A stretch of 48,442 nucleotides of DNA. Origin: a virus. Positions 1 through 12,562 of the stretch are shown here, piece after piece. The stretch covers positions 1-48,442 of IMG/VR virus record IMGVR_UViG_3300036826_000040. One strand, given 5' to 3'. How positions within the stretch are numbered: the first letter of the stretch is position 1; every line of letters begins with the position of its first letter. Both the position numbers and the translations under genes were made by a program. The notes beneath the pieces are model-generated. The model was not told the origin of the DNA and did no database searches. It saw only the letters and a list, made by a program, of their open reading frames with translations.

Positions 1-223
1 CCCTACAGGGCTGCCCATCGGCCTTGACCGCCCAGCAGCCTCCTGGCCCTGGTGCCGTCCCGCGTGAGCCGTGAAACGGCTGTGCGAGGACTGCGGGGAG
101 GGCTTCGGTCTCCGAGTCGGCCGAGTCGCTCCCCGGCTCAGCAAGCTGAGCCTGTGCGTGTGGATCTGCGCTCGGATCGGCGTGCAGTTCTGCGTGCTGA
201 TCCCCACGGAGATCGGCGTCCAC
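1..223 (-). pseudogene. 5' fragment of the Zn-knuckle gene, cut by the contig end
   Basis: This is the first ~74 codons of the gene that is complete at 47766-48434, repeated here because of the terminal repeat. It runs off the window at base 1. The single mismatch (G128 versus T48339) changes one codon from AGA (Arg) to AGC (Ser). It is probably not a separate gene, only the duplicated start. Confidence 0.75.
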
Positions 224-231
224 AAGCCGAT
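1..231. repeat. Left copy of 231-bp terminal direct repeat
   Basis: Positions 1-231 match 48212-48442 base for base except position 128 (G here, T at 48339). This is either a true terminal redundancy or the overlap left by assembling a circular or permuted genome. A minus-strand reading frame begins inside it (GTG at 223-221), showing that the sequence belongs upstream of the 47766-48434 gene. Confidence 0.95.
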
Positions 232-715
232 TCTACTCCCTTTAGGGAGTACAGCCCAGCCCCTTTAGGGGCTGCGAATCCTTACGAAATCCGAACCCTT
301 ACAGGGTTGTTGGCCGACGGTCGGCAGGTTGGCCGCCGGTCGGCTACATTGGGTCGGCCTGGCAGCGGTGCCACGGTCACCGAAGGTGGACGCCGCTGAG
401 CCAGTCGGTCGTCCTGCCCTGCGAGTGAGGGAGCTTTGCTCCCGAAGGACTGGGTAGCTGGCGACGCCGAGGGTGACTCGGCTGCCGAGGGATCGAAGAT
501 CCTCGGGACGTCATTCCCTGGTCGTGGGAGAGCTTGCTCTCCCTGCCTGCCTAGTGCAGCGCTGTGCGAGCGCTGTACGTCCACCGCAGCTTGCTGCGGG
601 GCTGGAGGAGGACAGCGGCCCCTGGTGCTTACAGCACCAACCCAAGCACATGAGACCTCTTTTCCAGCCCCCTACGGGGGGCTGGGATGGATGCCTCAAA
701 CCGAAAGGAGCAACG
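232..715. other. Non-coding hairpin-rich leader before the plus-strand arm
   Basis: No frame here has a convincing start, Shine-Dalgarno sequence or protein. It holds perfect inverted repeats: 234-251 (loop TTTA), 257-274 (loop TTTA), 294-308 (loop TAC), GGGAGC-TTT-GCTCCC near 430, GGAGAGC-TT-GCTCTCC near 530, GCAGC-TT-GCTGC near 585, TGGTGCT-TAC-AGCACCA near 625 and 664-685. It also contains a tandem operator-like repeat (310-344). It is likely a promoter/leader region for the genes from 716 on; no strong promoter was found by eye. Confidence 0.6.
310..344. repeat. Tandem 16-bp operator-like repeat
   Basis: Two copies of TTGGCCG(A/C)CGGTCGGC lie at 310-325 and 329-344, 19 bp apart, each itself a palindrome (GCCGACGGTCGGC in the first). 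The second copy abuts TACATT at 345-350, which could be a -10 element. Two helically phased palindromes beside a possible promoter suggest a dimeric repressor site; this is inference. Confidence 0.45.
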
Positions 716-922
716 ATGCACCGTCCCGACAACGCGGAGGTTCGCAGGAACCGCTTGGCGGTTCGCGCCACCTTCACAGGTCGGAGCAATCCGGTTCACG
801 GAATCTCGGACGACGTGTTGCTGAGCAACACGGTCAGCAGTCGAGCCGCTCGGCAAGCCGAGCGGGAGTGGAAGCGCTCGCTGTCCAGAGGACAGCGGCG
901 GAAGCTACGGGGTCGTCGGTAG
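716..922 (+). CDS. Small basic protein of unknown function
   Basis: This 68-residue protein starts at ATG 716, six bases after CCGAAAGGAG (701-710), a short version of the phage leader motif. It is very rich in Arg, with a C-terminal tail ending RGQRRKLRGRR, so nucleic-acid binding is possible but unproven. The family is not recognised. Four perfect inverted repeats lie within its 207 bases, for example GTGTTGCT-G-AGCAACAC and CGCTGTCC-AGA-GGACAGCG. A further one (GGGTCGTC-GGTA-GACGACCC) spans the stop codon. Confidence 0.65.
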   Translation: MHRPDNAEVRRNRLAVRATFTGRSNPVHGISDDVLLSNTVSSRAARQAEREWKRSLSRGQRRKLRGRR

Positions 923-949
923 ACGACCCCCCACCGAAAGGAGACCTTC

Positions 950-1195
950 GTGATTCTCACGAAGAAGGACATCGAGGGACGCTGGGCCGAGAGGGAGATT
1001 CTCTCCCTCTGGGAGACCTACAACCCGGAGGAGGATCCTCCGGTCGCCTTCTGGCTCGCTGAGGACGGCTCGCAGCTTTGCTGCGACTGCTCCAGCGACC
1101 GCCACGCGATCCTCGGAGAGGACTCCGAGGACGTCGAAGCGTTCGATCCTCGGATCGGCTGCGATGACTGCAAGACAGTCATCGCCTTCGACTGA
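950..1195 (+). CDS. Small acidic Cys-pair protein
   Basis: This 81-residue protein starts at GTG 950 after CCGAAAGGAG (934-943). Two cysteine clusters are visible, CCDC in the middle and CDDC near the C-terminus, so it may bind a metal as a zinc ribbon. The rest is acidic with a WAEREILSLWETY helix. The family is unknown. It is one of several Cys-rich small proteins just upstream of the amidoligase. Its coding sequence holds hairpins such as GAGGGAGA-TT-CTCTCCCTC and CTCGGAG-AGGA-CTCCGAG. Confidence 0.7.
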   Translation: MILTKKDIEGRWAEREILSLWETYNPEEDPPVAFWLAEDGSQLCCDCSSDRHAILGEDSEDVEAFDPRIGCDDCKTVIAFD

Positions 1196-1262
1196 GCGAG
1201 TGCTCGCCTGGTCGATCCTGCTGCTGATAGCAGCAGGGGGAGTCTGGTGGCACTACCGCTGA
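1164..1262 (+). CDS. Possible tiny membrane peptide
   Basis: A 32-codon frame from ATG 1164 (or GTG 1200) to TGA 1260-1262 overlaps the end of the preceding gene and covers most of the gap before 1329. Its second half, VLAWSILLLIAAGGVWWHYR, is a textbook single membrane helix. There is no good Shine-Dalgarno sequence, so expression would rely on coupling to the upstream gene. The hydrophobicity is the only support; chance is possible. Confidence 0.35.
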   Translation: MTARQSSPSTERVLAWSILLLIAAGGVWWHYR

Positions 1263-1271
1263 GCCGCTTTT

Positions 1272-1293
1272 CCAGCCCTCTGAGGAGGGCTGG
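1272..1293. other. Intergenic hairpin before the leader motif
   Basis: CCAGCCCTC-TGAG-GAGGGCTGG is a perfect 9-bp stem, followed by the leader motif CGACAGAGAGGAG (1307-1319). The near-identical hairpin at 664-685 occupies the same place relative to the 716 gene, so hairpin plus leader motif is a repeated arrangement. Confidence 0.6.
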
Positions 1294-1328
1294 GATGGCT
1301 GTTCAACGACAGAGAGGAGGCATCGAAG

Positions 1329-1556
1329 ATGCCTGAAGCTCAGCCGCTCGGAGACGAGCAGATCCCTTCGGGATCGGTGCCGTGCGATGGATGCCGTGGA
1401 GACGGCATCTACTACGGCAGGGGATACGTCGAAAACGGCGTGTTCAAGGGGTTCACCGGAACTTGCTTCCGGTGCCAGGGCAAGGGTCACATGACGGAGG
1501 CCGACGTGCGCCGTTGTCGTCACTACGACAACCATGTGCGTCGGATCAGCCTGTGA
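1329..1556 (+). CDS. DnaJ-like zinc-knuckle protein
   Basis: This 75-residue protein starts at ATG 1329 after CGACAGAGAGGAG. It has two CxxCxGxG motifs, CDGCRGDG and CFRCQGKG, about 24 residues apart, the pattern of one DnaJ-type zinc-binding module. Such modules bind unfolded protein or act as scaffolds. There is no J domain, so it is not a chaperone by itself. It lies just upstream of the amidoligase, whose N-terminus is also Cys-rich. The stop overlaps the next start (GTGA). Confidence 0.7.
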   Translation: MPEAQPLGDEQIPSGSVPCDGCRGDGIYYGRGYVENGVFKGFTGTCFRCQGKGHMTEADVRRCRHYDNHVRRISL

Positions 1557-1792
1557 TCCCGGCCACTTCAGGGCTAGTTCTAGCCCTGACCGACGAGGAG
1601 GCCACCGACCTGTTCCACACCCTTCAGGGTGTGGCGTTCGAGTTCGGAGGACTGAGCGATTCCAGCCGAAGGCTGGCGGCTCGCCTGGTCAGGCACTTCC
1701 GGGCACAGGGTCGGATCTCGACGGCCTGCGGAACTTCGTTCCGCTACCTCGACCTGAGACGTCCAGACGGGTCACATCCCTTCGGTCTGTGA
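1553..1792 (+). CDS. Small protein coupled to the zinc-knuckle gene
   Basis: This 79-residue protein starts at GTG 1553, overlapping the upstream TGA in the GTGA arrangement used many times in this genome. The sequence looks globular, with a helical LTDEEATDLFHTLQGVAFEF segment and an Arg-rich middle. The family is not recognised. Its 5' end contains a 10-bp perfect palindrome (1568-1589) and its stop codon lies in the bulged hairpin at 1769-1804. Confidence 0.55.
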   Translation: MIPATSGLVLALTDEEATDLFHTLQGVAFEFGGLSDSSRRLAARLVRHFRAQGRISTACGTSFRYLDLRRPDGSHPFGL

Positions 1793-1804
1793 AGGGTGTG
1801 ACCC
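1769..1804 (+). promoter_or_regulatory. Bulged hairpin containing a stop codon, copy 1
   Basis: The 5' arm 1769-1783 pairs with 1791-1804 with a single bulged T at 1777; the loop is GGTCTGT. The TGA of the upstream gene (1790-1792) is part of the loop and stem. The element ends just before the leader motif at 1812-1825. The same architecture (CCCTTC stem, seven-base GG-loop, GAAGGG, one bulge on one arm) recurs at 4566-4605 and 5141-5180. An alternative C(UUCG)G hairpin can form from the same bases, so the element may be bistable. Confidence 0.55.
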
Positions 1805-1831
1805 GTAAACCCCGACAGAGAGGAGACCGAC

Positions 1832-1930
1832 ATGTCGGTCAAGGCGATGGTCGCCGCTAGCCGCCAAAGGCGGCGTGGCTACATCGGCACGGTCGGCCAT
1901 GCCCTTATCAGGGCATCGGCCCAGCGGTAG
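1832..1930 (+). CDS. Short basic peptide
   Basis: A 32-residue frame starts at ATG 1832, six bases after a full leader motif (1812-1825), and ends at TAG 1928-1930. It is Arg-rich (SRQRRRG). The well-placed leader and start are the main evidence. Function is unknown. Its bases form GCCGCC-AAA-GGCGGC, ATGCCCT-TATC-AGGGCAT and CAGCGG-TAG-CCGCTG, so the frame could be incidental to the structure. Confidence 0.45.
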   Translation: MSVKAMVAASRQRRRGYIGTVGHALIRASAQR

Positions 1931-2018
1931 CCGCTGCACAAGCCCTCCGAGGAGGGCTTGCGTGGCTGCTAGTGCAGTCACACCACCTTCGGTGGTGAAC
2001 CCGATAGAGAGGAATCTC

Positions 2019-3341
2019 ATGCCTGAGAACGAAGTTCTCATCGACTGGCTTGCCCCGGCTTCTGAGGAAGCCGAGGAGGAGCCGGTGTACGAGTGCCCGG
2101 AGTGCGGCACGGAGCATCCAACGGAGTTGGATGTGGAACTCTGCTGCCCGACCTTCGAGTGCGACCACTGTGGTGCAGAGCACCCCAGTGAGGACGAGGC
2201 TTACGACTGCTGCCGCCACTACTGCGGCTCGTGCGGTACGGAGTACCGCTACGAGGACGAAGCCTACGACTGCTGCCGCTACTCGTGCCCCGGCTGCGGA
2301 GCCATGTACGACTACGAGGAGGACGCCAACGGCTGCTGTGGCCCCAGAGGGGCCAGCTATCCGTCGCTCTCCGACCTTCCCGAGCCTTACCTGATCTCGG
2401 TTCCCGAGATCGAGGGACGGCCTGCGAGGGTCTGCTCTATCGAGCAGGAGATCAACGACGGAGGCTCGGAGGCGCTCCAGATGCTCTACGACTTCGGCTT
2501 TGCCGATGGCAACGAGCAGTCCTCGTACTCGTCCCAGGGTCGGCCTGGCCGTGTGACGGTCAAGTCGGATGCCTCCCTTTCGGGAGAGGATTCGGCCGAG
2601 ATCGTCTACAGCCGTTACCGGCTGTGGGAGCCTGCTTCGTCCAGGGACTTGTCCCTGGCTCTCGGCAGGATGCGTCAGTTGGCTCGGGAGGCGAACGTAG
2701 TTCGCGTCAACAAGTCGGCTGGAACCCACATCCACATCTCGGCTTTGGCCGAGGATGGAACCGGGATCGGCCCGGTCGAGATGGCCGCTCTGCACGAAAT
2801 CTTCTGCTACGCAGAGGATTTCCTGTACTCGGTCGCTGCGGCTGGCTGGGACGCTCACAGATCCCGACCGGGATCTGGTGGCTACTGCAAGCCTGTCCCG
2901 AAGATCCCTTCGGGACAGAAGGCGACGGGCTTCAGGGTCAACGGGCTGATGGCGAGAGACCGATACTTCGGTCTCAACTTCCAGCGGCTCATCGGCTGTG
3001 CCTCGAACTGCTCCTGTGGAGCAGCGAGGTTCGGTGAGTGGGGAGCGTGCGAATGCGGAGCATTCGACGCTGCGACGGTCGAGTGGAGGCTGTTCAACGC
3101 TTCTACGAAGCCCGAGACGCTCCACGCCTGGCTGATCCTGGCTCACTCGCTGACCGCTGCGGCCTTCGGCCACACGGTCGGCTCGCTGCCAGTCAACGAG
3201 TACGGCACATCCGACCTGGAGGGTCGGATGGCAGTTCAGCGCTGGATCGAGGCGAATGCCCCGATGACGGACGACGAGATCCTCGTCGTCCGCGAGGCGG
3301 TGCGGAGGTCTCCCGGTCTCGGGAGACCAGGAAGGAGGTAA
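2019..3341 (+). CDS. Amidoligase (glutamine-synthetase fold) with four CxxC-x12-CC repeats
   Basis: This 440-residue protein starts at ATG 2019 after CCGATAGAGAGGAA. Residues 26-107 hold four exact tandem units C-x2-C-x12-C-C (C26/29/42/43, C48/51/64/65, C69/72/85/86, C90/93/106/107), probably metal-binding. From about residue 138 come amidoligase (COOH-NH2 ligase) hallmarks: IEQE (E142, E144), VKSDASL then AEIV (K182, D184, E194), GTHIHI (H237, H239), RYFGLN near 315 and VEWRLFNAS (E355, R357). A further Cys cluster (C327, C331, C333, C344, C346) is inserted before the last motif. The family forms amide bonds between a carboxylate and an amine using ATP. The next gene is a class II glutamine amidotransferase, a known partner type. 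The substrate is unknown. Confidence 0.82.
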   Translation: MPENEVLIDWLAPASEEAEEEPVYECPECGTEHPTELDVELCCPTFECDHCGAEHPSEDEAYDCCRHYCGSCGTEYRYEDEAYDCCRYSCPGCGAMYDYEEDANGCCGPRGASYPSLSDLPEPYLISVPEIEGRPARVCSIEQEINDGGSEALQMLYDFGFADGNEQSSYSSQGRPGRVTVKSDASLSGEDSAEIVYSRYRLWEPASSRDLSLALGRMRQLAREANVVRVNKSAGTHIHISALAEDGTGIGPVEMAALHEIFCYAEDFLYSVAAAGWDAHRSRPGSGGYCKPVPKIPSGQKATGFRVNGLMARDRYFGLNFQRLIGCASNCSCGAARFGEWGACECGAFDAATVEWRLFNASTKPETLHAWLILAHSLTAAAFGHTVGSLPVNEYGTSDLEGRMAVQRWIEANAPMTDDEILVVREAVRRSPGLGRPGRR

Positions 3342-3350
3342 CTGCGGATG

Positions 3351-3368
3351 CCAGCCCTAACGGGCTGG
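3351..3368. other. Intergenic hairpin with UAAC loop
   Basis: CCAGCCC-TAAC-GGGCTGG lies in the 87-base gap between the amidoligase and amidotransferase genes. It is followed by CTGTCCC-GGA-GGGACAG and then the leader motif (3409-3422). The TAAC loop also caps hairpins at 4521-4542, 5884-5901 and 9992-10015. Confidence 0.6.
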
Positions 3369-3408
3369 CTTCCCGGAGCTACCTGCTCCCTGTCCCGGAG
3401 GGACAGAA

Positions 3409-3422
3409 CCGACAGAGAGGAG
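3409..3422 (+). repeat. Dispersed leader motif CCGACAGARAGGAG (exemplar copy)
   Basis: This motif contains the Shine-Dalgarno sequence and sits 5-12 bases before most left-arm starts. Copies and near copies: 701-710, 934-943, 1307-1319, 1812-1825, 2001-2014, 3409-3422, 4608-4621, 4955-4966, 5431-5444, 5929-5942, 6536-6549, 6758-6771, 7903-7916, 8446-8460 (degenerate), 8857-8870, 10022-10035, 14197-14210 and 44799-44810. A bare Shine-Dalgarno site would not conserve the CCGACA part. It resembles in concept the start-associated sequences of cluster K mycobacteriophages. Confidence 0.85.
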
Positions 3423-3428
3423 CAACAC

Positions 3429-4511
3429 ATGTGCGGAATCGCTGGCATCTACCTGCGAGACCTCCGAATGGAGGTCGATCTCGACTCGATGCTGGACACG
3501 ATGCTGGATGAGATCCAGCATCGCGGCGGCGATGCGACGGGCTTCGTCGCTCTCGGAGAGAGCGGCGTGACCGAGTGGCACCGTGCGGCCTGCGATGTCC
3601 CGGACTTCACGAAGTACCGGCGTCCCGTCCCGAAAGGGACGTGGACGGTCGTGGCCCACACTCGGTATGCAACGCAGGGTCTCCCTGCGTTCATCGAGAA
3701 CAACCACCCGATCAAGCGCGGCCCGTTCTACGTGGTGCATAACGGCCACGTCTCCAACGACAGCGAGCTTTTCAAGCTCGCTGAGAGGACGCCGTTCGGC
3801 CAGGTCGATTCGGAGGCGATCCCGGCCCGTCTAGCTTCCCTGGGGAAGCTGACGGACGCCGAGATCGTCATGGAGGAGATCCAGGGATCAGCGGCTATCG
3901 CCGCTGTGGACGAGACCAACCCCGCCGAGCTTGTGCTCGCCAAGGGGCACTCGTCTCCCTTGTTCGTCCTGGTGACGAACAAGATCGTCCTGTGGGGATC
4001 GACCGAGGCGACGGTACGCTCGGCCTACAAGAAGCATGTAGGCCGACTGCCGAAGAAGCGGAAGATCGAGTCTCTCTCCCCTGGAGAGATGATCCACTTC
4101 GACGCCAACGGCAAGCAGACTCGAACGAAGTTCGAGGTCTACGTGCCGAAGTACATCTCCTACAAGCCGTCTACGGCTTGGAAGGAGACCACGGCGTTCA
4201 CGTACTCGACGGAGAAGGACGCTGCTTGCAGCGTCCCTCCGACGAGGCACCTGCCGACCATTTCGGGCTTCCCGAAATGGGACGACACGGGAGCCGACGA
4301 CGATGCACACTCGACAGAGTGTGACGTCTGCGGCCAGAGCGTTCGCTACAGCGACGCTTCCTACGTGGATGACCCGCTCGACTCGAAGCTGACCTGGGTG
4401 GTCTGCTCGGCCGAGTGCGAGGCTGAGGCGCTCTGGGACGGGGACATCTCCGATGACCCCGCCATCGTCAACGCCGCGATCCTCGCCGCTGGCGAGGAGC
4501 AGGACGACTGA
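3429..4511 (+). CDS. Stand-alone class II glutamine amidotransferase
   Basis: This 360-residue protein starts at ATG 3429 after a full leader motif. The N-terminal MCGIAG gives the Cys2 nucleophile after Met removal. Family motifs follow in order: HRGGDATGF, VVAHTRYATQG, ENNHPI, VVHNGHVSN and VDSEAI. These domains split glutamine and pass on ammonia. There is no synthetase or isomerase domain here, so a partner enzyme is needed; the amidoligase upstream is the obvious candidate. Residues from about 300 form an extra tail with CDVCG and CSAEC, a likely zinc finger. The coding sequence is unusually full of palindromes, such as GGACGCTGC-TT-GCAGCGTCC (4217-4236). Confidence 0.9.
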   Translation: MCGIAGIYLRDLRMEVDLDSMLDTMLDEIQHRGGDATGFVALGESGVTEWHRAACDVPDFTKYRRPVPKGTWTVVAHTRYATQGLPAFIENNHPIKRGPFYVVHNGHVSNDSELFKLAERTPFGQVDSEAIPARLASLGKLTDAEIVMEEIQGSAAIAAVDETNPAELVLAKGHSSPLFVLVTNKIVLWGSTEATVRSAYKKHVGRLPKKRKIESLSPGEMIHFDANGKQTRTKFEVYVPKYISYKPSTAWKETTAFTYSTEKDAACSVPPTRHLPTISGFPKWDDTGADDDAHSTECDVCGQSVRYSDASYVDDPLDSKLTWVVCSAECEAEALWDGDISDDPAIVNAAILAAGEEQDD

Positions 4512-4520
4512 CCCTGCACA

Positions 4521-4542
4521 GAGCACCCCTAACGGGGTGCTC
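4521..4542. other. Intergenic hairpin with UAAC loop
   Basis: GAGCACCCC-TAAC-GGGGTGCTC is a perfect 9-bp stem ten bases after the amidotransferase stop. There is no T run, so it is more likely an mRNA-stabilising or processing element than a terminator. Confidence 0.55.
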
Positions 4543-4565
4543 GATGGAGGGCCACAAGGCTCACC

Positions 4566-4605
4566 CAGGGTTTTCCCCCTTCGGGGTTTGAAGGGGGAAA
4601 CCCTG
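4566..4605 (+). promoter_or_regulatory. Bulged hairpin, copy 2
   Basis: CAGGG, a bulged T at 4571, then TTTCCCCCTTC pairs with GAAGGGGGAAA and CCCTG; the loop is GGGGTTT. It stops three bases before the leader motif at 4608-4621. It has the same plan as 1769-1804 and 5141-5180. The loop G's can instead pair with the C's to make a C(UUCG)G hairpin. Confidence 0.55.
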
Positions 4606-4625
4606 AACCGACAGAGAGGAGCATC

Positions 4626-4862
4626 ATGGCGACAACGGAGAAGCCCGACACGTCGCCACTCCGTATCAACGGAGTGATCGTCCAGGACGGCATCCAGGCC
4701 AACCTGGACACGGCTCGACGGCGTTACCGTCGAGAGTACGACCGGGGCTACCTGCTCTCCGAGCAGGGCCACTCCGAGCACGCGCAGCGTGTTCTCGACA
4801 CTGCCAACAGCGAGCTACTGCTCGCTGAGACGAAGTACGCCAAGGCACGGGGTCGGCAGTAG
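4626..4862 (+). CDS. Small helical protein of unknown function
   Basis: This 78-residue protein starts at ATG 4626 after a full leader motif. The C-terminal two thirds (RRRYRREYDRGYLLSEQGH and on to the end) is predicted helical and charged, compatible with a short coiled coil. The family is not recognised. The stop codon lies inside GGGGTCGGC-AGTA-GCCGACCCC. Confidence 0.65.
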   Translation: MATTEKPDTSPLRINGVIVQDGIQANLDTARRRYRREYDRGYLLSEQGHSEHAQRVLDTANSELLLAETKYAKARGRQ

Positions 4863-4871
4863 CCGACCCCG

Positions 4872-4939
4872 GCTGGTCGCGTCTGCGGTAACAGGCGCAT
4901 TGACGGCTAAGGCAGACACCGCCTGGAGCGCCGACCAGC
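4872..4939 (+). ncRNA. Possible pseudoknotted RNA leader
   Basis: In the 112-base gap, GCTGGTCG (4872-4879) pairs with CGACCAGC (4932-4939) as a closing helix. Inside it, GTCTGC (4881-4886) pairs with GCAGAC (4912-4917), and CAGGCG (4892-4897) pairs with CGCCTG (4920-4925) across it, giving an H-type pseudoknot. It sits upstream of the 4975 gene. Three interlocking perfect helices in 68 bases are the only evidence; a regulatory RNA is inferred. Confidence 0.4.
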
Positions 4940-4974
4940 ACGCACCACCACCACTGACGAAAGGAGGTTCGGCT

Positions 4975-5133
4975 ATGCCGAACGGCTACGAACACTGGAA
5001 CGAGGAAGCGGATCTGATCCGCTACGCGGAGACCGACTTCGACTCCCCGATGGCCGACATGTCGGACGAGGAGATCAAGCAGGCGGTCTACGACCGAGAG
5101 GACGACGACTGGCCTGCCGACTGGGAGGACTGA
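4975..5133 (+). CDS. Small acidic protein
   Basis: This 52-residue protein starts at ATG 4975 after TGACGAAAGGAGG. About a third of its residues are Asp or Glu and there is almost no basic charge, ending DREDDDWPADWED. Such proteins can mimic DNA, but there is no family match to support that. The start lies in the palindrome GTTCGGC-TAT-GCCGAAC, so the start codon would be in a loop of the mRNA. Confidence 0.6.
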   Translation: MPNGYEHWNEEADLIRYAETDFDSPMADMSDEEIKQAVYDREDDDWPADWED

Positions 5134-5140
5134 CCTCCTC

Positions 5141-5180
5141 CTCGATTTAGCCCTTCGGTCTATGAAGGGCATAAATCGAG
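5141..5180 (+). promoter_or_regulatory. Bulged hairpin, copy 3
   Basis: CTCGATTTAGCCCTTC pairs with GAAGGGC and TAAATCGAG with one bulged A at 5171; the loop is GGTCTAT. It is directly followed by AGAGGAGG, the ribosome-binding site of the 5195 gene. It shares the CCCTTC-loop-GAAGGG core with 1769-1804 and 4566-4605. Confidence 0.55.
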
Positions 5181-5194
5181 AGAGGAGGATCAGA

Positions 5195-5383
5195 ATGCCT
5201 GAGATCATCGCCACTGTCGTTGCCGACAGGGTGACACCTGGCGCAGTTCGGTTCACCGAACTGGAGCCGCAGATCGGAGACACCTGCATCTCCATCTATC
5301 TCCGCAAGGAGATGGTCAGCTTCCTGGGTCTCGACCCGGAGCAGGAAGGCACCACGGTCAGGCTGAAGCTCGACCGTGCGTAG
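5195..5383 (+). CDS. Small protein of unknown function
   Basis: This 62-residue protein starts at ATG 5195 behind CGAGAGAGGAGG. The sequence suggests a small beta-rich fold (IIATVVADRV, AVRFTELE, CISIYLRKE, TTVRLKLDRA). There are no recognised motifs. Context suggests an early gene under the same leader-type control as its neighbours. Confidence 0.6.
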   Translation: MPEIIATVVADRVTPGAVRFTELEPQIGDTCISIYLRKEMVSFLGLDPEQEGTTVRLKLDRA

Positions 5384-5451
5384 CAGCTAGGGCCGCTCTG
5401 CGGCCCCTGCTGGTGCGTCTTGCACCACCACCGACAGAAAGGAGTCAGGCT

Positions 5452-5877
5452 ATGCCTGGCAAGTACAGGATCGAAGCGACAATCTCGCTCTCGACGTCCA
5501 TCGGGCCGCAGAGCGGCTACGTCTCGGGCATCGAGGACGAGGGCATCGAGGACTTCGAGGACTCGTCCCAGTGGGACGAGGAGTACGTCTCGGTCGGCGG
5601 GGGAGTCGTGGACTTCACCGTCGAGGCCGACTCGGAGGACGAGGCGCGGGAGATGGCGGATCGCGCCGTCGCCAACGCCTACTACGAGGGCGACGACATC
5701 GAGTGGGAGATCGCTGACTACTCGATCTCCAGCGTCGAGTGCATCGAGGAGCCGATGGACTTGGCGAAAGCCAAGGACATCTTCCGCGAGTTCCTTCGCA
5801 GGAACTCGTCCGTGCTCTCGATCACGGATCAGGAGCAGGCAGCGTTCGACTTCCTGCTCGAACTGCTGACCCCGTAG
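5452..5877 (+). CDS. Acidic hypothetical protein
   Basis: This 141-residue protein starts at ATG 5452 after a full leader motif (5431-5444). The N-terminal half carries an acidic stretch (SGIEDEGIEDFEDSSQWDEE) and a beta strand pattern. The C-terminal part is helical (AKAKDIFREFLRR and DFLLELL). The family is unknown; similar acidic segments occur in small actinophage proteins. Confidence 0.65.
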   Translation: MPGKYRIEATISLSTSIGPQSGYVSGIEDEGIEDFEDSSQWDEEYVSVGGGVVDFTVEADSEDEAREMADRAVANAYYEGDDIEWEIADYSISSVECIEEPMDLAKAKDIFREFLRRNSSVLSITDQEQAAFDFLLELLTP

Positions 5878-5883
5878 CAGGTA

Positions 5884-5901
5884 GGGGAGCTAACGCTCCC
5901 C
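5884..5901. other. Intergenic hairpin with UAAC loop
   Basis: GGGGAGC-TAAC-GCTCCCC in the 70-base gap upstream of the leader motif at 5929-5942. It has the same loop as hairpins at 3351, 4521 and 9992. Confidence 0.6.
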
Positions 5902-5947
5902 CTCCTGGTGCAGCGAGTCAGCACCATACCGACAGAGAGGAGGGGCT

Positions 5948-6376
5948 ATGCCCCTGACTTGGGACACGCAGGACGTCCTCAACTACGAGGACGTCTGCTG
6001 GATCACGAGCGAGGCCGGGATCCCCGACCACGGCATCGAGCCGGGTCAGAAGTACCTCAACCCGGTCACGAACGCGCTGATCTGGCACTCGTTGAACACG
6101 GGGATCGGAAGAATCACCGAGGTCAACGCGGCCGAGGTCTACGCCAGGATCGCCCTGGTCGAGACGCTGTACGGAGCATCGCTCCGTAACAGCGACGGCC
6201 CCAGGCCGATCACGATGGACGACGTGCTTCAGCACGTCGGTCTGACCACCAACGCCACCTTCCAGGAGGAGTCCCGCACGAAGTTCCTGAAGCGCCATGC
6301 GGACTACTTCCTGACCGAGAAGGTCGCCGCCTTCAAGAAGGCGACGAAGGCGAAGGACAGCGGCGAGGGGGCTTAG
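5948..6376 (+). CDS. Hypothetical protein
   Basis: This 142-residue protein starts at ATG 5948, five bases after a full leader motif. It is a globular mixed protein with no motif I recognise; the segment TEVNAAEVYARIALVETLYGA looks helical. It ends the first leader-motif gene series, directly before the large inverted repeat at 6389-6461. Confidence 0.7.
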   Translation: MPLTWDTQDVLNYEDVCWITSEAGIPDHGIEPGQKYLNPVTNALIWHSLNTGIGRITEVNAAEVYARIALVETLYGASLRNSDGPRPITMDDVLQHVGLTTNATFQEESRTKFLKRHADYFLTEKVAAFKKATKAKDSGEGA

Positions 6377-6388
6377 CCCCCTCCGCTG

Positions 6389-6461
6389 CATGAACGACCG
6401 GGTATCGGGAGAGGGCGCGCGCCCTGGGAGAGCGGCAGCGCGTTTTTCCCGGTCGTTCATG
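6389..6461. terminator. Large inverted repeat, probable terminator or structural site
   Basis: CATGAACGACCGGG (6389-6402) and CCCGGTCGTTCATG (6448-6461) form a perfect 14-bp stem. The 45-base loop contains the 14-base palindrome 6412-6425 (AGGGCGCGCGCCCT) and a run of five T's just before the right arm. Placed between the 6376 stop and the promoter at 6494, it is likely to end the first transcript. A protein-binding or replication site is also possible. Confidence 0.5.
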
Positions 6462-6493
6462 GAGCGCACACCGCGTTCCCGCACCACCACCTG

Positions 6494-6522
6494 TTGCACG
6501 TCCGGTTGACGTGTGGTAGGAT
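6494..6522 (+). promoter_or_regulatory. Sigma-70/SigA-type promoter
   Basis: TTGCAC (6494-6499), a 17-base spacer, and TAGGAT (6517-6522). Transcription would start near 6529 and the leader motif follows at 6536. The arms GTTGCACG (6493-6500) and CGTGCAAC (6529-6536) flank the promoter as an inverted repeat, a possible operator. Confidence 0.65.
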
Positions 6523-6555
6523 GTCGTGCGTGCAACCGACAGGAAGGAGGTCAGC

Positions 6556-6777
6556 TTGACCACCACCACTGTCTCCGTCGAGAAGTTCAGGACGGAGGCC
6601 GAGCGGCGTCTGATCGACACGTTCGAGCTAATGCTCGAACTCGGTCTGCGTTCCCGTGACGCCGTGTGGAGTCGCGTCGAGAGCGGCGCGATTCCAGCAC
6701 CGATCATCCGCAAGGCCAACGTAGTTGCCTTGTGGGACAGGGACGCACTCGATCTACCCGACAGAAAGGAGTCGTGA
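6556..6777 (+). CDS. AlpA/excisionase-like small DNA-binding protein
   Basis: This 73-residue protein starts at TTG 6556 after CCGACAGGAAGGAG (6536-6549); no ATG or GTG fits as well. The segment RDAVWSRVESGAIPAPIIRKANVVALWDRDAL matches the helix-turn-helix-wing layout of AlpA/excisionase regulators. It is the first gene after the promoter at 6494, so it may regulate that promoter. No integrase is visible, so a true excisionase role is unlikely. Its stop overlaps the next ATG. Confidence 0.6.
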   Translation: MTTTTVSVEKFRTEAERRLIDTFELMLELGLRSRDAVWSRVESGAIPAPIIRKANVVALWDRDALDLPDRKES

Positions 6778-7847
6778 TGCGTCACGACACGCTGGACTCG
6801 CTCATCGAGCGCGTCCTGAAGGAGCACGAGCGCAAGGAGGACATCCTTGCGGACACGAGGCACATGTCGGTCGTCGTGGAGTCGGAGGAGGACGGCAACC
6901 CGGTCACGCTCAGCGTGGACGAGGCTGACGGCACCACTCTGCACTACGCGCCGTCCGAGCACATGCTCGGGCAGATGGCGACCGATCTCCAGATCCCGAA
7001 GCGGTACTTCGACCGCATGAGGAGCGCAGCACCCGACCTGTTCAGGTCGAACGTCCACCACTGGCTCTACCAGGAGCCGAAGCGGAGGATGCTGCGTGCG
7101 TACAAGGTGGACGACGAGGTTCGCAACGGGAGAGCCTGGCTCTCCGACCGCTACAGGCGGCTCGACAACATCGAGATCGCCACTCGTCTCCTCCCGGAGT
7201 TCGGCAGGCTCGATGTCGAGCCTGAGTTCCACAGCGCGTCGATCACCGACGAGCGCTTCTACCTCCGTGCCGTGTTTCCGGGCATGGAGCGCGAGGTCAA
7301 GGTCGGGGACGCCGTGCAGTGGGGCGTGCAGATCCGCAACTCGGAGGTCGGGGCGGCAACGTTCGCCATCGAGTCCTTCGTGCTGCGCCTGGTCTGCAAG
7401 AACGGGATGGTCGTCGCCAAGGTGCTGAACGCTCGGCACATCGGCAAGCGGTTGGACGACATCCTCTCGGACGAGGCAGTGGAGGCCGACGACCACGCCT
7501 TCTGGCTGGCCGCTCGGGACACGCTGCGTGCCTCGATGGACGAGGCTGCGTTCGAGGAGACGGTCGAGAAGCTGCGTGGGACGACGGAGGGTGCTCGGAT
7601 CGAGTCCGCTCCGCAGGCCACGAAGCGCCTCGCCAAGACGGTCGGCCTCTCCGAGGAGGAGCAGGAGACCGTGCTCACGAACCTGGTGCGTGAGGGCGAC
7701 CTCACCCGCTGGGGGATGTTGAACGCCGTCACCGCCGCTGCACACTCGGTCGAGTCCTTCGACCGGGGCGTGGAGTTGGAGGAGGCTGGCTGGAACATCG
7801 CCAACCTGTCCCGGCGCGACTGGGACAGGATCGCCGTCGCAGCCTGA
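6777..7847 (+). CDS. DUF932 family protein
   Basis: This 356-residue protein starts at ATG 6777 (TGATG overlap) after the leader motif 6758-6771. Family-typical features are the N-terminal HYAPSEHMLGQMATDLQIPKRYFDRM segment, RAWLSDRYRRLDN, and the central FVLRLVCKNGMVV core. DUF932 proteins are common in phages and plasmids and their biochemical role is unknown; a link to DNA replication or recombination is often suggested from context. Hairpin density falls within this gene compared with the genes to its left. Confidence 0.8.
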   Translation: MRHDTLDSLIERVLKEHERKEDILADTRHMSVVVESEEDGNPVTLSVDEADGTTLHYAPSEHMLGQMATDLQIPKRYFDRMRSAAPDLFRSNVHHWLYQEPKRRMLRAYKVDDEVRNGRAWLSDRYRRLDNIEIATRLLPEFGRLDVEPEFHSASITDERFYLRAVFPGMEREVKVGDAVQWGVQIRNSEVGAATFAIESFVLRLVCKNGMVVAKVLNARHIGKRLDDILSDEAVEADDHAFWLAARDTLRASMDEAAFEETVEKLRGTTEGARIESAPQATKRLAKTVGLSEEEQETVLTNLVREGDLTRWGMLNAVTAAAHSVESFDRGVELEEAGWNIANLSRRDWDRIAVAA

Positions 7848-7860
7848 CGGCTGGGGGTAA

Positions 7861-7892
7861 GTGTGGCCCCCTCGTTTACGAGGGGCCACACA
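7861..7892. terminator. Strong intergenic hairpin
   Basis: GTGTGGCCCCCTCG-TTTA-CGAGGGGCCACAC forms a long GC-rich stem with one unpaired C, just after the DUF932 stop and before the leader motif at 7903. There is no T tract, so it may stabilise or process the mRNA rather than terminate. Confidence 0.5.
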
Positions 7893-7922
7893 CCCCCACA
7901 ATCCGACAGAAAGGAGCAAGCC

Positions 7923-8138
7923 ATGTTCACCGTCACCATCAACGAGGGGCCGCTGACGTCCGACGACAACGCGGTCTACTTCTGTGACGCGGAGCCGAAG
8001 GGGTTGCTGATCGAGTTCGAGTCGCCCGATGGCGACATGAAGTTCGCTCGCTTCCTCGCCTTCACGCCGTCCAACGGCCGTGATCCCGGTGCTCCGCACC
8101 GCGTTCCGATGGAGCGCGTCGTCTCGGTGGTCGGATGA
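7923..8138 (+). CDS. Small hypothetical protein
   Basis: This 71-residue protein starts at ATG 7923 after CCGACAGAAAGGAG (7903-7916). The sequence suggests a compact beta protein (FTVTINEG, AVYFCDAE, GLLIEFESP, FARFLAFTP). No known family. The stop overlaps the next start as ATGA, so translation is probably coupled. Confidence 0.65.
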   Translation: MFTVTINEGPLTSDDNAVYFCDAEPKGLLIEFESPDGDMKFARFLAFTPSNGRDPGAPHRVPMERVVSVVG

Positions 8139-8428
8139 CCACCGGGGAGCAGGTCTACGCCACCACGATGCGGCGGGCTTACGCAGCCGCTCGCACCGTG
8201 GCCTGGCGACACCGAGGCGGCGACTCGGACGAGTTCAACGCCTGCGTCGTCCTGGCGATCCCGCACGTTCGCTGGCGGGACGCCGAGACTCGCATCGACT
8301 TCCTGGCCGCACTCGAACGAGCGGCCTACCTCGGGTTCGACCCGTGGGAAGTCGAGGACAGGGCCAGCTTCATCTCGGTCTGTTACGACGCCGAGATCCA
8401 GGCCGAACGTGCAAAGGGCGGCGAGTGA
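8135..8428 (+). CDS. Small hypothetical protein
   Basis: This 97-residue protein starts at ATG 8135 overlapping the upstream TGA. It is mostly helical with an Arg-rich first half and an acidic C-terminal half (FDPWEVEDRASFISVCYDAEIQAERA). No motif recognised. Confidence 0.65.
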   Translation: MTTGEQVYATTMRRAYAAARTVAWRHRGGDSDEFNACVVLAIPHVRWRDAETRIDFLAALERAAYLGFDPWEVEDRASFISVCYDAEIQAERAKGGE

Positions 8429-8445
8429 ACTCGCCGCCCAATGCC

Positions 8446-8507
8446 CCGACAGAAAGGCAGTCGCGCGGTTTCCCGCGCGCCACTCTCTGTGCGAAGGAGG
8501 ATACTCG
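8446..8507 (+). promoter_or_regulatory. Split leader: degenerate motif, hairpin, second ribosome-binding site
   Basis: CCGACAGAAAGGCAG (8446-8460) is the leader motif with a C inserted in the Shine-Dalgarno, and no start codon follows it. A hairpin (GCGCGG-TTT-CCCGCGC) and then a separate GAAGGAGG lead to ATG 8508. The original site appears broken and replaced. Confidence 0.5.
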
Positions 8508-8813
8508 ATGCACGCGGAAGTTCGCGGGCGTCACCACCACTGGAAGGTGTGGACGCCCGATCAAGGATCTCTCGCGCATACCGTCCCGATGTACGACCAG
8601 GACGGGATGCTCGTGGAGATGCTCGTCGTCGGAGCGCCGCCCGAGAAGGGCGGCGTGAAGATGGTCGAGTGCTATGGCGGGCCGTTCGAGTCTCAGGAGG
8701 AGGCCATCGAGTACGCCCGCTACCTCGGCTACACCGAGGTCAAGGTCGTCAAGACCAAGACGAAGCAGGAGGCTCTGGCAGCAGCCAGGGCTGCAAGATC
8801 ACGAAGCGCTTGA
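8508..8813 (+). CDS. Small hypothetical protein
   Basis: This 101-residue protein starts at ATG 8508 after GAAGGAGG. The N-terminus is His-rich (GRHHHWKVWTP). The middle looks beta, and the C-terminus is a Lys/Ala helix (KTKTKQEALAAARAARSRSA). Unknown family. The following hairpin CCTGGC-AGCA-GCCAGG is within the gene. Confidence 0.65.
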   Translation: MHAEVRGRHHHWKVWTPDQGSLAHTVPMYDQDGMLVEMLVVGAPPEKGGVKMVECYGGPFESQEEAIEYARYLGYTEVKVVKTKTKQEALAAARAARSRSA

Positions 8814-8838
8814 CGTTACACGGTAAGACGTGTAGGGT
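8810..8838 (+). promoter_or_regulatory. Promoter with embedded operator-like palindrome
   Basis: TTGACG (8810-8815), a 17-base spacer, and TAGGGT (8833-8838). The spacer contains TACACG (8817-8822) and CGTGTA (8829-8834), an inverted repeat overlapping the -10. The next gene encodes a helix-turn-helix protein, so autoregulation is plausible. Confidence 0.7.
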
Positions 8839-8873
8839 AAGCGCCTGGTCCACTACCCGACAGGAAGGAGAAC

Positions 8874-9542
8874 GTGAACACAGCAGCAGAACGCCACCTT
8901 GCCAAGGCCGAGGGATACCTCGCTAAGGGCGATAGCTGGTACCACAAGGCAGCCGACGAGATCGTTGCCGCGATGGAAGCGGACACGACGCTCGGCCAGC
9001 AGAAGATCGCGGACAGGCTCGGCAAAAGCCGAGCCTGGGTGAGGGACATCGTGGCATGGCACACTAGCGGGCGGCCTGCCGCCATCTCGTGGCATCGCGG
9101 TTCTCACGCCACCACCGCAGAGATCCAGCAGGGCGCACGTCGGCTCCTGCGGGAGGCTCCACTGGAACAGGTGGAGCAGATCATCTCCGAGCTACCTGCT
9201 GAACGTCAGCAGGCCATCGGAGCAGCAGCGGGCCACCGTTACCTGCGTGCTCGTCAGGATCACGACGAGGCAGAGGCCCGTCTCACACCCGCCCAGCGCC
9301 GCGAGCGCGAAGCAGGACGGGCGGAAACCCAGAGGCTCGCCAGCAAGATGACGGCGGGCTTCGCAACCCTCGGCATCATCGGCCACTTGGAGCAGGTTGT
9401 TGAGGAGATGCGGGAGTTGAACGCCGACTCCTCCATCACCCCTCAGCAGGTCGAGCAGATCGAGGCTGTCCTGAAGGACATCCTCACCGAAGTCGAAGTG
9501 GCTCGGGCGATGGCCGGGATGGAAGGGAGCGAGATCGGATGA
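8874..9542 (+). CDS. Helix-turn-helix regulator or ParB-like protein
   Basis: This 222-residue protein starts at GTG 8874 after CCGACAGGAAGGAG. Residues ~39-62 (LGQQKIADRLGKSRAWVRDIV) form a clear helix-turn-helix of the type found in KorB/ParB-like and phage regulators. The remainder is helical with coiled-coil potential (EAEARLTPAQRREREAGRAE and the C-terminal LEQVVEEM region). Its own promoter carries a palindrome, so it is the best candidate for a phage regulator. A role in partition or replication cannot be excluded. Confidence 0.65.
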   Translation: MNTAAERHLAKAEGYLAKGDSWYHKAADEIVAAMEADTTLGQQKIADRLGKSRAWVRDIVAWHTSGRPAAISWHRGSHATTAEIQQGARRLLREAPLEQVEQIISELPAERQQAIGAAAGHRYLRARQDHDEAEARLTPAQRREREAGRAETQRLASKMTAGFATLGIIGHLEQVVEEMRELNADSSITPQQVEQIEAVLKDILTEVEVARAMAGMEGSEIG

Positions 9543-9982
9543 AGGATCTGGCTCGTTGGGAACGGCTGGAGGAGTTCCTGGTCGATCACGACACCGAGAC
9601 CTTCTCGGTGTACGACATCGCCGCAGGGATGGGAGTCACGGTCGAGACGGCCAGTGACCTGATCCAGTCGTACCTCGGGGCGCAGCGCGCGGTCAACCCC
9701 CGCACGCTGTACGTCCTGAAGCGCGAGGGTCGCACTCGTAGTGCGACCTGGAGCGTCGGTCAGCGCACCACCGACGCTCGCATCATCTCGAACGTGCTGT
9801 TCGATGATGTGCAGGTCAAGGTGCATCGGGCATGGAAGCATGACCTCGACAGGCTGAAGGAGAAGAACCCCCAGGCCGCTCGCTACGTCGAGGCCAAGCT
9901 GGTCGCCGTCGTTGACGGTGCACTCCAGATGCTCGCAGTCGCCCTCGATGCAGAGGACGGTTACGAGACCGACCACGCCTAG
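9539..9982 (+). CDS. Winged-helix-like hypothetical protein
   Basis: This 147-residue protein starts at ATG 9539 (ATGA overlap with the regulator). The segment FSVYDIAAGMGVTVETASDLIQSYL looks like a helix-turn-helix and the following strands like a wing. It is probably co-translated with and functionally linked to the regulator upstream. The gene holds the hairpin GTCGCACT-CGT-AGTGCGAC near 9729. Confidence 0.6.
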   Translation: MKDLARWERLEEFLVDHDTETFSVYDIAAGMGVTVETASDLIQSYLGAQRAVNPRTLYVLKREGRTRSATWSVGQRTTDARIISNVLFDDVQVKVHRAWKHDLDRLKEKNPQAARYVEAKLVAVVDGALQMLAVALDAEDGYETDHA

Positions 9983-9991
9983 TAGTAGCAG

Positions 9992-10015
9992 GGGGAGCGG
10001 CTAACGCCGCTCCCC
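9992..10015. other. Intergenic hairpin with UAAC loop
   Basis: GGGGAGCGGC-TAAC-GCCGCTCCCC is a 10-bp perfect stem between the 9982 stop and the leader motif at 10022. It is similar to 5884-5901, with three extra pairs. Confidence 0.6.
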
Positions 10016-10039
10016 TACCACCCGACAGAAAGGAACGAA

Positions 10040-10168
10040 ATGCCACGCAAGACACGACTGAAGGCCAAGGGGCAACGCACCCGTGGTCGTCACAAGCACC
10101 GCTACTCACCAGAGACGAAGGTGTGGAACCGCCTGATGAAGAAGGGGAAGGCGGTGACGAAGCTGTGA
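10040..10168 (+). CDS. Very basic 42-residue protein
   Basis: ATG 10040 follows CCGACAGAAAGGAA (10022-10035); the frame ends at TGA 10166-10168. More than a third of the residues are Lys, Arg or His (KTRLKAKGQRTRGRHKHR), so it likely binds nucleic acid. The stop overlaps the next GTG (GTGA). Confidence 0.6.
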   Translation: MPRKTRLKAKGQRTRGRHKHRYSPETKVWNRLMKKGKAVTKL

Positions 10169-10545
10169 GCTACGAGCCGAACCGCAAGCAGTCCACGCAG
10201 GACTTCTACGAGTCCGCGATGCAGCCCGACTTCCCCGACGAGATCGCACTTCAGATCGACCGTCAGCAGGCTGGCGAAGGCCCGGAGATCGGGTACAGCC
10301 AGGAGTCGGTCGAGACGATCTCGGAACAGTTCCGCGCGTTCCTGCTTGCCCGCAGCTACGCACACTACAAGGCGACGGGCTTCATGCCGAAGCACGTCCG
10401 GGCGAAGGTCACGTTCGACTTCAGCCCGCACCCTGGCGACCCGATGGACGACCCCGATGTGGGGCCGTTCTACCACGCCGCCAACGACCGGGGCACCACC
10501 ATGATCGACGGCACGCTCCGTGCTTACTCCTGGAGGAAGCCGTAA
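10165..10545 (+). CDS. Hypothetical protein
   Basis: This 126-residue protein starts at GTG 10165 in a GTGA overlap. It is a globular protein with a helical N-terminal half and a C-terminal PHPGDPMDDPDVGPFYHAAND segment. No known family. It begins a long run of overlapping genes. Confidence 0.65.
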   Translation: MSYEPNRKQSTQDFYESAMQPDFPDEIALQIDRQQAGEGPEIGYSQESVETISEQFRAFLLARSYAHYKATGFMPKHVRAKVTFDFSPHPGDPMDDPDVGPFYHAANDRGTTMIDGTLRAYSWRKP

Positions 10546-11495
10546 TGCAGGCGTGGGAGTGGGCGCTGGAACTCCGCACGGAGTTGGAGGAGTTCTGGCG
10601 CTCCCCGGTCGGCCAGCGCTTCGGCCAGGGATGGTCGAACGTGCGGGCGAGGAAGGCGGGGATGCCGCCGATCCAGGACATCGAACTGGTGAAGCTGCCC
10701 ATCGCCGCCCCGTTCTACGTCACCGAGGAGATGACCGACCTGCTCACGCACGCAGCGCAGTCGTTCCCGGAGACGGAGTTCCGCCCGATGGATCTACCGC
10801 TGGAGGCTGGGTTCGTCTACTTCGCCAACCCGATCCCGGTCATCGACATCAACCTGAAGGAACTCCACTGGCGGGCGTTCTCGTGGGGAACCACCTACGA
10901 CGAGAACGGGCCGTGGGGCGTGCATCTCGCCTTCTACGACCACAGGGACGACCGAACGTTCGCCCCCTATGTCGAGGACGAGGAGCGGTACGGGCTGCTC
11001 GACATCCTGCCCACGCTGGGGATGCAGCACGAGACCCAGTGGACGTTCGGATCGACGTGCCGCTCCGAGCAGAGGGGCGGGACAATCGCCAACAAGGACA
11101 AGGAGATCCCGGAGGAGGCGAGGGCGTCGGGCGAGCAGATGCTCGCCACGGTTCACGCCTTCTGGCTGCTCTGCTGGCAGAGGATCGGCACGCCACAGAA
11201 CGAGCGCGCATCACGCGGCGTTCGCCGTCGCGCAGAGCGTTCGTTCCCTGGGCGTCCGATCCCCGAGGTCAGGGTCATCACCCTCCGTCGCCCGAAGCCT
11301 CCGAAGGAGGCTGGCGAGGAGGTCAACGGCGGTGGCCGGGAGTACACGCACCGCTGGTGGGTGGACGCCTACTGGCGGCGGACGTGGTACGAGTCGGAGG
11401 GTCGCCACAAGCCCCAGCTTGTCGCTGGGTCGGTGCGTGGCCCGAAGGACAAGCCCCTTGTCCTGAAGGACAAGGTGTACCTCTGGAGACGCTGA
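10545..11495 (+). CDS. Conserved hypothetical protein of actinobacterial mobile elements
   Basis: This 316-residue protein starts at ATG 10545 (TAATG overlap). The C-terminal part, with HRWWVDAYWRRTWYESEGRHKPQLV and then GPKDKPLVLKDKVYLWRR, is a pattern I recall from actinobacterial genomes and phages, where it has no assigned role. The N-terminal half is helical with ITLRRP and aromatic-rich strands. The conserved basic aromatic end suggests nucleic-acid contact; this is inference. Confidence 0.65.
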   Translation: MQAWEWALELRTELEEFWRSPVGQRFGQGWSNVRARKAGMPPIQDIELVKLPIAAPFYVTEEMTDLLTHAAQSFPETEFRPMDLPLEAGFVYFANPIPVIDINLKELHWRAFSWGTTYDENGPWGVHLAFYDHRDDRTFAPYVEDEERYGLLDILPTLGMQHETQWTFGSTCRSEQRGGTIANKDKEIPEEARASGEQMLATVHAFWLLCWQRIGTPQNERASRGVRRRAERSFPGRPIPEVRVITLRRPKPPKEAGEEVNGGGREYTHRWWVDAYWRRTWYESEGRHKPQLVAGSVRGPKDKPLVLKDKVYLWRR

Positions 11496-11674
11496 TGCCG
11501 AGACCGAAGCGATCAGTCAGAGCGAGCGGTGTGGGCCGCAGTATCGGTGCCTACACCGCCGCGCTTGTGACCTGCTCCGAGTGCAAGCGCAGGTTGCCGC
11601 GCGAAGCGATCCACCACATCACGAAGAAGGGCAAGGCGTGGTGCGGCGAGTGCTGGGCGACGTGGCCGCGATGA
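11495..11674 (+). CDS. Small zinc-finger protein
   Basis: This 59-residue protein starts at ATG 11495 (TGATG overlap). CSECKRRLP and CGECWATW give two CxxC pairs with a HH between, a four-Cys zinc ribbon. It is basic at the N-terminus. Short zinc ribbons like this are common in phage replication regions; function unknown. Confidence 0.65.
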   Translation: MPRPKRSVRASGVGRSIGAYTAALVTCSECKRRLPREAIHHITKKGKAWCGECWATWPR

Positions 11675-11958
11675 GCCACGTCATCCATCTGATCGGCGGC
11701 GTGGACGGCATCGAGGACTACCCCGAGCTAGCCGTCCACGTCGGCGGCTACGTCACCCGCTACGAGCCGTTCAACTCGAAGAAGGGCGAACAGTGGATCT
11801 GGACAGACTCGCGCGTCGAGAAGGCGATCCACTTCAAGGACGCTGCGAAGGCGCATGAGTTCTGGACGACCGCCATCGGGATCCGTCCCGATGGTCAGCC
11901 CGACCGTCCGCTGACGATCTACCACGTCAGCATCGAGCCGGTCGAGGAGGACGAGTGA
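11671..11958 (+). CDS. Hypothetical protein
   Basis: This 95-residue protein starts at ATG 11671 (ATGA overlap). It begins MSHVIHLIGGVDGIEDYPEL and looks like a small alpha/beta protein. No known family. Confidence 0.6.
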   Translation: MSHVIHLIGGVDGIEDYPELAVHVGGYVTRYEPFNSKKGEQWIWTDSRVEKAIHFKDAAKAHEFWTTAIGIRPDGQPDRPLTIYHVSIEPVEEDE

Positions 11959-12284
11959 CGAACTTCCCGCAAAGAGCGAGAAAGCCGGGTCGCCCCGGCT
12001 TCTCGGAAATGCCGCACGGGTTGAACCTCTCGGCCTCCCGGCGTACTGTCTGCGTTCGTGACACGTCAGACTGGAGAAGCGTAACGCACGGCCCCCCCGA
12101 AGTGAAGGCCGGTTGCTCGGGGCAGGCGAAGGATGGAGGCCGAGCGGACTGCCTAAAGGCGCAGCTTGGTCGAGAACGGATGTCCTGTCCTTCAACGGCT
12201 GGAAGGGGTGCAGCCCCCCTGGGTGGGGGGGGTTCGGGAAGAACGCTCCGAACCCCCCCGATGGCTCTGGAGGAGAACACATGA
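11955..12284 (+). CDS. Doubtful frame, probably untranslated leader
   Basis: A 109-codon frame opens at GTG 11955 (GTGA overlap), which would fit the local style. However, its codon use is much less biased than that of its neighbours and its sequence is low-complexity (GGGG, PP, many Arg and Ser). The same bases contain a promoter-like pair (12021-12049) and two strong hairpins. I think most of this frame is non-coding; a short N-terminal peptide may be made. Confidence 0.25.
   Translation: MTNFPQRARKPGRPGFSEMPHGLNLSASRRTVCVRDTSDWRSVTHGPPEVKAGCSGQAKDGGRADCLKAQLGRERMSCPSTAGRGAAPLGGGGSGRTLRTPPMALEENT
11979..12005. other. Strong hairpin after the 11958 stop
   Basis: CGAGA, an unpaired A, then AGCCGGG pairs with CCCGGCT and TCTCG around the loop TCGC. 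There is no T run. It lies just before the promoter-like pair at 12021 and may separate the two transcripts. Confidence 0.45.
12021..12049 (+). promoter_or_regulatory. Promoter-like sequence upstream of the recombination operon
   Basis: TTGAAC (12021-12026), 17 bases, TACTGT (12044-12049). This would give a leader of about 225 bases before ATG 12281. The spacing is ideal and both hexamers match at four or more positions. It fits the apparent lack of coding in 11960-12280. Confidence 0.45.
12226..12259. other. Very strong G/C hairpin in leader
   Basis: GGGGGGGTTCGG pairs perfectly with CCGAACCCCCCC around a ten-base loop, ending 11 bases before the ribosome-binding site GGAGGAG of the 12281 gene. 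It may be an attenuator or a stabiliser; there is no T tract. Confidence 0.5.
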
Positions 12285-12562
12285 GGAACCCCTGCATCAT
12301 CCCCGGCTGTCGAGGAGAGGGGATCTGGCAGCTAGGTGTGCGCGCACGTCTGATCGCTAAGGCCGCGTCACCATCACATCCGAGCAAGCGGGCGACCGAC
12401 GCTGCCTTCGCTCCGAACCTGCCCGCGTTCCTCTGCGACAAGCACGCCTTCAGCGGGTGTCTACTCACGCTGATCGTGGAGCCGAGGAAGTACCACGAGA
12501 CCAGGGTGCGGGCCATCGGTGCTCCGAACCCACAACCACACAGGACGGTGAAGATCAAGTGA
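12281..12562 (+). CDS. Small Cys/His protein
   Basis: This 93-residue protein starts at ATG 12281 after CTGGAGGAG. CIIPGC near the N-terminus and C-DKH further on could bind zinc. Basic C-terminus. The family is unknown. Its stop overlaps the next GTG. Confidence 0.6.
   Translation: MRNPCIIPGCRGEGIWQLGVRARLIAKAASPSHPSKRATDAAFAPNLPAFLCDKHAFSGCLLTLIVEPRKYHETRVRAIGAPNPQPHRTVKIK

Follow-up and report, generated by a model that had tools for sequence, protein, structure and literature searches.

Gene pairs coding for an amidoligase and an amidotransferase are widespread in phages, among them phages of Mycobacterium, of Pseudomonas and of marine Methylophilales. The published guesses at what such pairs do range from modifying the cell wall against superinfection to secondary metabolites (PMC10580990), and nitrogen metabolism has been proposed in another phage (PMC10945688); a literature search found no demonstrated substrate of a phage amidoligase pair. 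The locus described here shares a PF12224 amidoligase and a nearby GATase_6 amidotransferase with the LUZ24-like cluster (UFV-P2; PMC3890496), which differs from it in having no Cys module, in an HNH gene between the two enzyme genes and in the ATP-grasp and AIG2 genes alongside. Mycobacteriophage Marvin gp105-gp106 and its relatives have, like the present locus, an N-terminal Cys-rich module, the glutamine-synthetase (GS)-fold signature and an adjoining class II amidotransferase with a Cys-rich tail. However, the module of Marvin gp105 is made of CxxC...CxxC ribbons and contains no CxxC-x12-CC units, and its core has no CxCG insertion. A MurT/GatD-type pair was also considered and set aside, as the two enzymes described here differ in class from MurT, which is homologous to Mur ligases, and from GatD, an amidotransferase of class I.

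The window, that is the whole stretch of DNA analysed, is a 48,442-base viral record in which the tailed-phage genes recognised (terminase, portal, major head protein, tail and endolysin) lie on the minus strand. The features that concern us are the following.

2019..3341, plus strand: phage amidoligase gene (Amidoligase_2 / glutamine-synthetase fold) with N-terminal Cys array; 440 aa, ATG start
2094..2147, plus strand: unit 1, CPECGTEHPTELDVELCC (C26/29/42/43; residues 26-43), predicted beta-beta-alpha
2160..2213, plus strand: unit 2, CDHCGAEHPSEDEAYDCC (C48/51/64/65; residues 48-65), predicted beta-beta-alpha
2223..2276, plus strand: unit 3, CGSCGTEYRYEDEAYDCC (C69/72/85/86; residues 69-86), predicted beta-beta-alpha
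2286..2339, plus strand: unit 4, CPGCGAMYDYEEDANGCC (C90/93/106/107; residues 90-107), predicted beta-beta-alpha
2376..3338, plus strand: catalytic domain, residues 120-440, GS/GCS fold; signature invariant in 11 phage amidoligases
3009..3056, plus strand: CxCG-x10-CxCG core insertion (C331/333/344/346; residues 331-346), probable second metal knuckle
3429..4511, plus strand: class II glutamine amidotransferase, 360 aa, catalytic Cys2; GATase_6 E 2.8e-15
4320..4418, plus strand: CxxC...C-x3-C tail at the C-terminus of the amidotransferase (C298/301/326/330), probable zinc ribbon

A reading made from the sequence alone had described four exact C-x2-C-x12-C-C units of identical spacing, with a period of 21-22, at the N-terminus of the amidoligase. 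Translation of 2019-3341 bears this out: the units lie at 2094-2339, the residue positions agree and the periods are 22, 21 and 21. A search of all six frames of the window gave no further match to the pattern. When residues 1-123 were shuffled, at least two units appeared in 26 of 200,000 shuffles and more than two never. A chance or hairpin artefact as the origin of the array was ruled out on two grounds: the Cys spacing persists in phage proteins whose context is unrelated, and just two of the hairpins internal to the amidoligase gene fall wholly within the array (2115-2133 and 2233-2249).

The same gene with Cys units was found in six other viral contigs (L002, L003, L235, L211, L260 and L275/L305), and in all of them the Cys ligands are kept. 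Their terminases share 60-83% identity with that of the window, and therefore the window and the six contigs belong to one phage lineage; neither the annotated phage collection nor a set of 84,980 prokaryote genomes yielded a close relative. All four units with their 16 Cys are retained in L003, L260 and L275/L305. In L002 and L235 the array opens with a longer CxxC...CxxC ribbon, after which come three units, and in L211 a ribbon stands between two units. Across the relatives the linkers between units vary from 2 to 5 residues whereas the x12 spacing stays fixed, and for this reason a metal site spanning the CC of one unit and the CxxC of the next was judged less likely than a site within each unit. 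A recent tandem duplication was ruled out as well. DNA identity among the four units of the window is 52-74%, and the mean identity outside the Cys is higher between units at equivalent positions in different phages (38%) than between those whose positions differ (29%). The array is thus old and has been maintained.

The unit is not confined to this enzyme. When degenerate patterns for two CxxC-x12-CC units in tandem were run against DNA with no other residue specified, they matched mostly low-complexity Cys runs, which was cured by adding G and [ED]-x-A to the unit pattern. With these additions, a scan for a single unit returned 85 ORFs in 89 viral loci, a count that includes the seven proteins with arrays as well as a few chance ORFs rich in Cys; about 80 phage ORFs beyond the array bearers carry the motif. 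Many of the 85 encode small proteins that contain a single unit or two. Ala14 is present in 121 of 124 distinct units, and the aromatic or His residue at position 8 is near-constant. Companion units with the same framework, which had not been selected for CC, show only three exceptions to it (CH, C-x3-H and C-x3-C), so that a fourth possible ligand is always present in them. Several of the small unit-bearing proteins match PHROG 32948, a family of unknown function whose profile also matches the window protein (E 0.0075, residues 68-108) and L275 of the array lineage (E 0.0058), weakly in both cases. The PHROG 32948 proteins share with the window the C-x2-C(G)-x7-[ED]-x-A-x2-CC unit, often paired, and differ from it in standing alone, in their longer linkers (period 24-33) and in having no enzyme fusion. 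A large set of small, strongly acidic phage proteins with one or two CxxCG-x7-[ED]-x-A-x2-CC units, partly PHROG 32948, was seen in L202-L290. No paper found in the literature search names the C-x2-C-x12-CC ligand pattern.

The models made with AlphaFold2 show four beta-beta-alpha units both for the array alone (pLDDT 82.5) and in the full-length protein (pLDDT 76.5), each with two short strands and then a helix that ends at the CC. Each unit is accordingly predicted to fold as a beta-beta-alpha mini-finger and would bind zinc, although adjacent Cys-Cys ligands are unusual for such a finger, which weighs against this reading. Foldseek, run with the array against the PDB, agrees with the fold, its best matches being tandem C2H2 proteins, some designed and some natural (Aart, E 4e-5), and the sequence profile by itself matches Aart (E 2.6e-7) and ZBTB24. 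Superposition of the whole array on solved fingers was poor (Z at most 2.9), as would be expected with a different linker; in the models, then, the resemblance holds for each unit and not for the overall arrangement. With tandem C2H2 fingers (Aart 2i13, ZBTB24 6ml2 and CTCF) the array has in common the C-x2-C hairpin, the predicted beta-beta-alpha fold and the tandem order, and all four units have the C-x2-4-C with 12 residues to the first helix ligand. It differs in having CC instead of H-x3-5-H (in 4/4 units and nearly all relatives), an Ala where the helix core usually has Leu, a strongly acidic composition and a period of 21-22, the usual period of C2H2 arrays being 28. Because the His-x3-5-His pair is missing, the unit is classed as C2H2-like rather than as a true C2H2 finger. 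Neither Pfam zf-C2H2 nor any other zinc-finger family matched the window protein at gathering, and the matches seen in relatives were all sub-threshold.

The array had been proposed as a new metal-binding element fused to the enzyme. The metal-binding part of this proposal is well supported by ligand conservation, the four-Cys swaps, the predicted fold and the compensating fourth ligands. The novelty stands only in part, as the fold is C2H2-like and, by its sequence pattern, the unit already recurs in many phage ORFs and in PHROG 32948. The other suggestion of the sequence-only reading, that the array could bind RNA, finds little room. DNA-binding C2H2 arrays are indeed its best fold and profile matches, but the array has 22 D/E to 3 K/R and a pI of 4.05, the mean net charge per unit is -3.5 (124 units) and its predicted helices are acidic. 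Because of this strong acidity, binding of RNA or DNA in the manner of classical C2H2 fingers is very improbable, and the reading preferred is that the array binds the partner amidotransferase or else some protein or peptide.

The enzyme that carries the array belongs, as judged from its sequence, to the GS-fold Amidoligase_2 family with intact signature residues, and catalysis is predicted. PF12224 matched the window protein with E 2.4e-4 and 21.5 bits against a gathering threshold of 22, and exceeded the threshold in two relatives (L002, 23.1 bits; L211, 22.7 bits). The core model matches YbdK and glutamine synthetases with Z of about 12-13. The ExE, HxH, RY...N and E-x-R signature is present, and E142, E144, D184, S186, E194, G235, H237, H239, R315, Y316, N320, T353, E355, R357 and F359 are invariant in 11 phage amidoligases. 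Additional Cys in the core had also been pointed out from the sequence. These are C331, C333, C344 and C346 of the CxCG-x10-CxCG insertion, which is kept in all relatives of the window lineage (present in the window, L002, L003, L235, L211 and L305) and, among the 11 amidoligases compared, is absent from the enzymes of L231, Marvin, ctgrD200, Taranis and the Blautia phage. The insertion is probably a second metal knuckle, specific to the window lineage among the enzymes compared.

It could be argued that the array is a structural cap, a redox switch or a metal-sensing regulator of the amidoligase with no role in recognition. The array is dense in Cys, the core has this lineage-specific insertion of its own, and some amidoligases of the same family (Taranis, Blautia, AR1086-1 and UFV-P2) do without a Cys module. 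However, the swapping of units and the variation in linkers suit modular recognition better than a fixed element, and the unit is also found in stand-alone proteins, which makes a purely structural or regulatory role improbable.

Directly 3' of the amidoligase, in the window and in all relatives whose contig continues, lies the gene for the amidotransferase. The protein has the Cys2 nucleophile and the HTR-AT and HNG motifs of class II enzymes, and its GATase_6 score is 56.9 bits against a gathering threshold of 27. C2, R79, N105 and G106, and also H77, are invariant in seven amidotransferases. The Cys pairs noticed earlier in its tail, C298, C301, C326 and C330, were recovered as conserved: in the relatives in which the full gene is readable (L002, L235, L298 and L305) the four Cys are kept as CxxC...CxxC. 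From this pattern, the tail is probably a zinc ribbon. Class II amidotransferases of L231 (8173-8967, minus strand) and L291 (4430-5329) likewise end in a Cys-rich tail of CxxC repeats.

Comparison with other phages suggests that the Cys module and the amidotransferase go together. A Cys-rich module stands just ahead of the amidoligase core in the window lineage, L231, Marvin gp105, ctgrD200, MEP401 and Acinetobacter phage 313, and an amidotransferase of class II adjoins it in 6/6 of these lineages. No amidotransferase was found in the stretch read near the module-less amidoligases of Taranis, the Blautia phage and Clostridioides phage AR1086-1. The amidoligase of UFV-P2 has no Cys module, yet an amidotransferase with CxxC pairs in its tail is nearby, and thus pairing does not require the module. 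The association (6/0 with the module vs 1/3 without it) is suggestive only, because the lineages are few and were collected by similarity.

The surroundings of the pair have features of their own. The early region (1-13,500, coding sequence included) contains 195 short perfect inverted repeats with a stem of at least 7 and a loop of 3-8, as compared to 8.7 in dinucleotide shuffles. Their density within the amidoligase and amidotransferase genes is 20-26 per kb; they are at chance in the tail-tape gene, and the structural genes are near chance. Three relatives (L306, L307 and L308) have a like density and the more distant L305 does not. From the window to the L306 amidoligase, 68% are paired as compared to 18-33% in slid controls, and many hairpin pairs are kept between relatives by bases that have changed and are still complementary. 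Among the neighbouring genes, a 75-aa Cys-rich ORF (1329-1556, plus strand) has a CxxCxGxG pattern like that of a DnaJ central domain (Pfam PF00684, E 4.9e-6, below gathering), and an 81-aa ORF (950-1195, plus strand) with CxC...CxxC gave a weak zinc-finger-like match. The best conserved of the early genes compared encodes a DUF932 / PHROG 1362 protein (6666-7847, plus strand), with 65-81% identity in three relatives.

We infer that the array has a role in partner docking or substrate recruitment. It would consist of four tandem zinc-stabilised beta-beta-alpha mini-fingers, with the C-x2-C ligands in the hairpin and the C-C at the helix end, and would act as the N-terminal adaptor of a two-component, glutamine-dependent phage amidoligase. 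The downstream amidotransferase would free ammonia from glutamine via Cys2, and the amidoligase would activate a carboxylate with ATP and then form the amide. The acidic fingers and the ribbon of the amidotransferase tail would contact proteins, and could keep the two subunits joined to each other, deliver a protein or peptide substrate, or do both. On balance, and with some reserve, we regard the array as a zinc-finger-like adaptor of the amidoligase/amidotransferase pair that docks the partner and/or recruits a protein substrate.

It is possible, though doubtful, that what the fingers recruit is not the amidotransferase but a specific protein of host or phage, which the pair then amidates or ligates early in infection. 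The make-up of the array differs between relatives (four units; a ribbon and three units; a ribbon between two units), as expected of a module that reads targets. Some small phage proteins are themselves short arrays of the unit, which means that no amidotransferase is needed for the unit to work, and the Pup-system enzyme Dop is among the fold matches of the amidoligase core model (Z 11.7). Against this, Cys modules are found only on amidoligases with an adjoining amidotransferase, which fits docking equally. A still more tentative idea, and an unlikely one, is that the units form a distinct phage class of acidic CC-ligand mini-finger that serves as a protein adaptor and, fused here, aims the glutamine-dependent amidoligase at a particular host protein; the result would be a phage-encoded protein-amidating system.

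The array points to a recurring, unannotated type of finger across phage proteins, and an adaptor domain that is conserved and detachable would offer a means to fish out the partner or the substrate.
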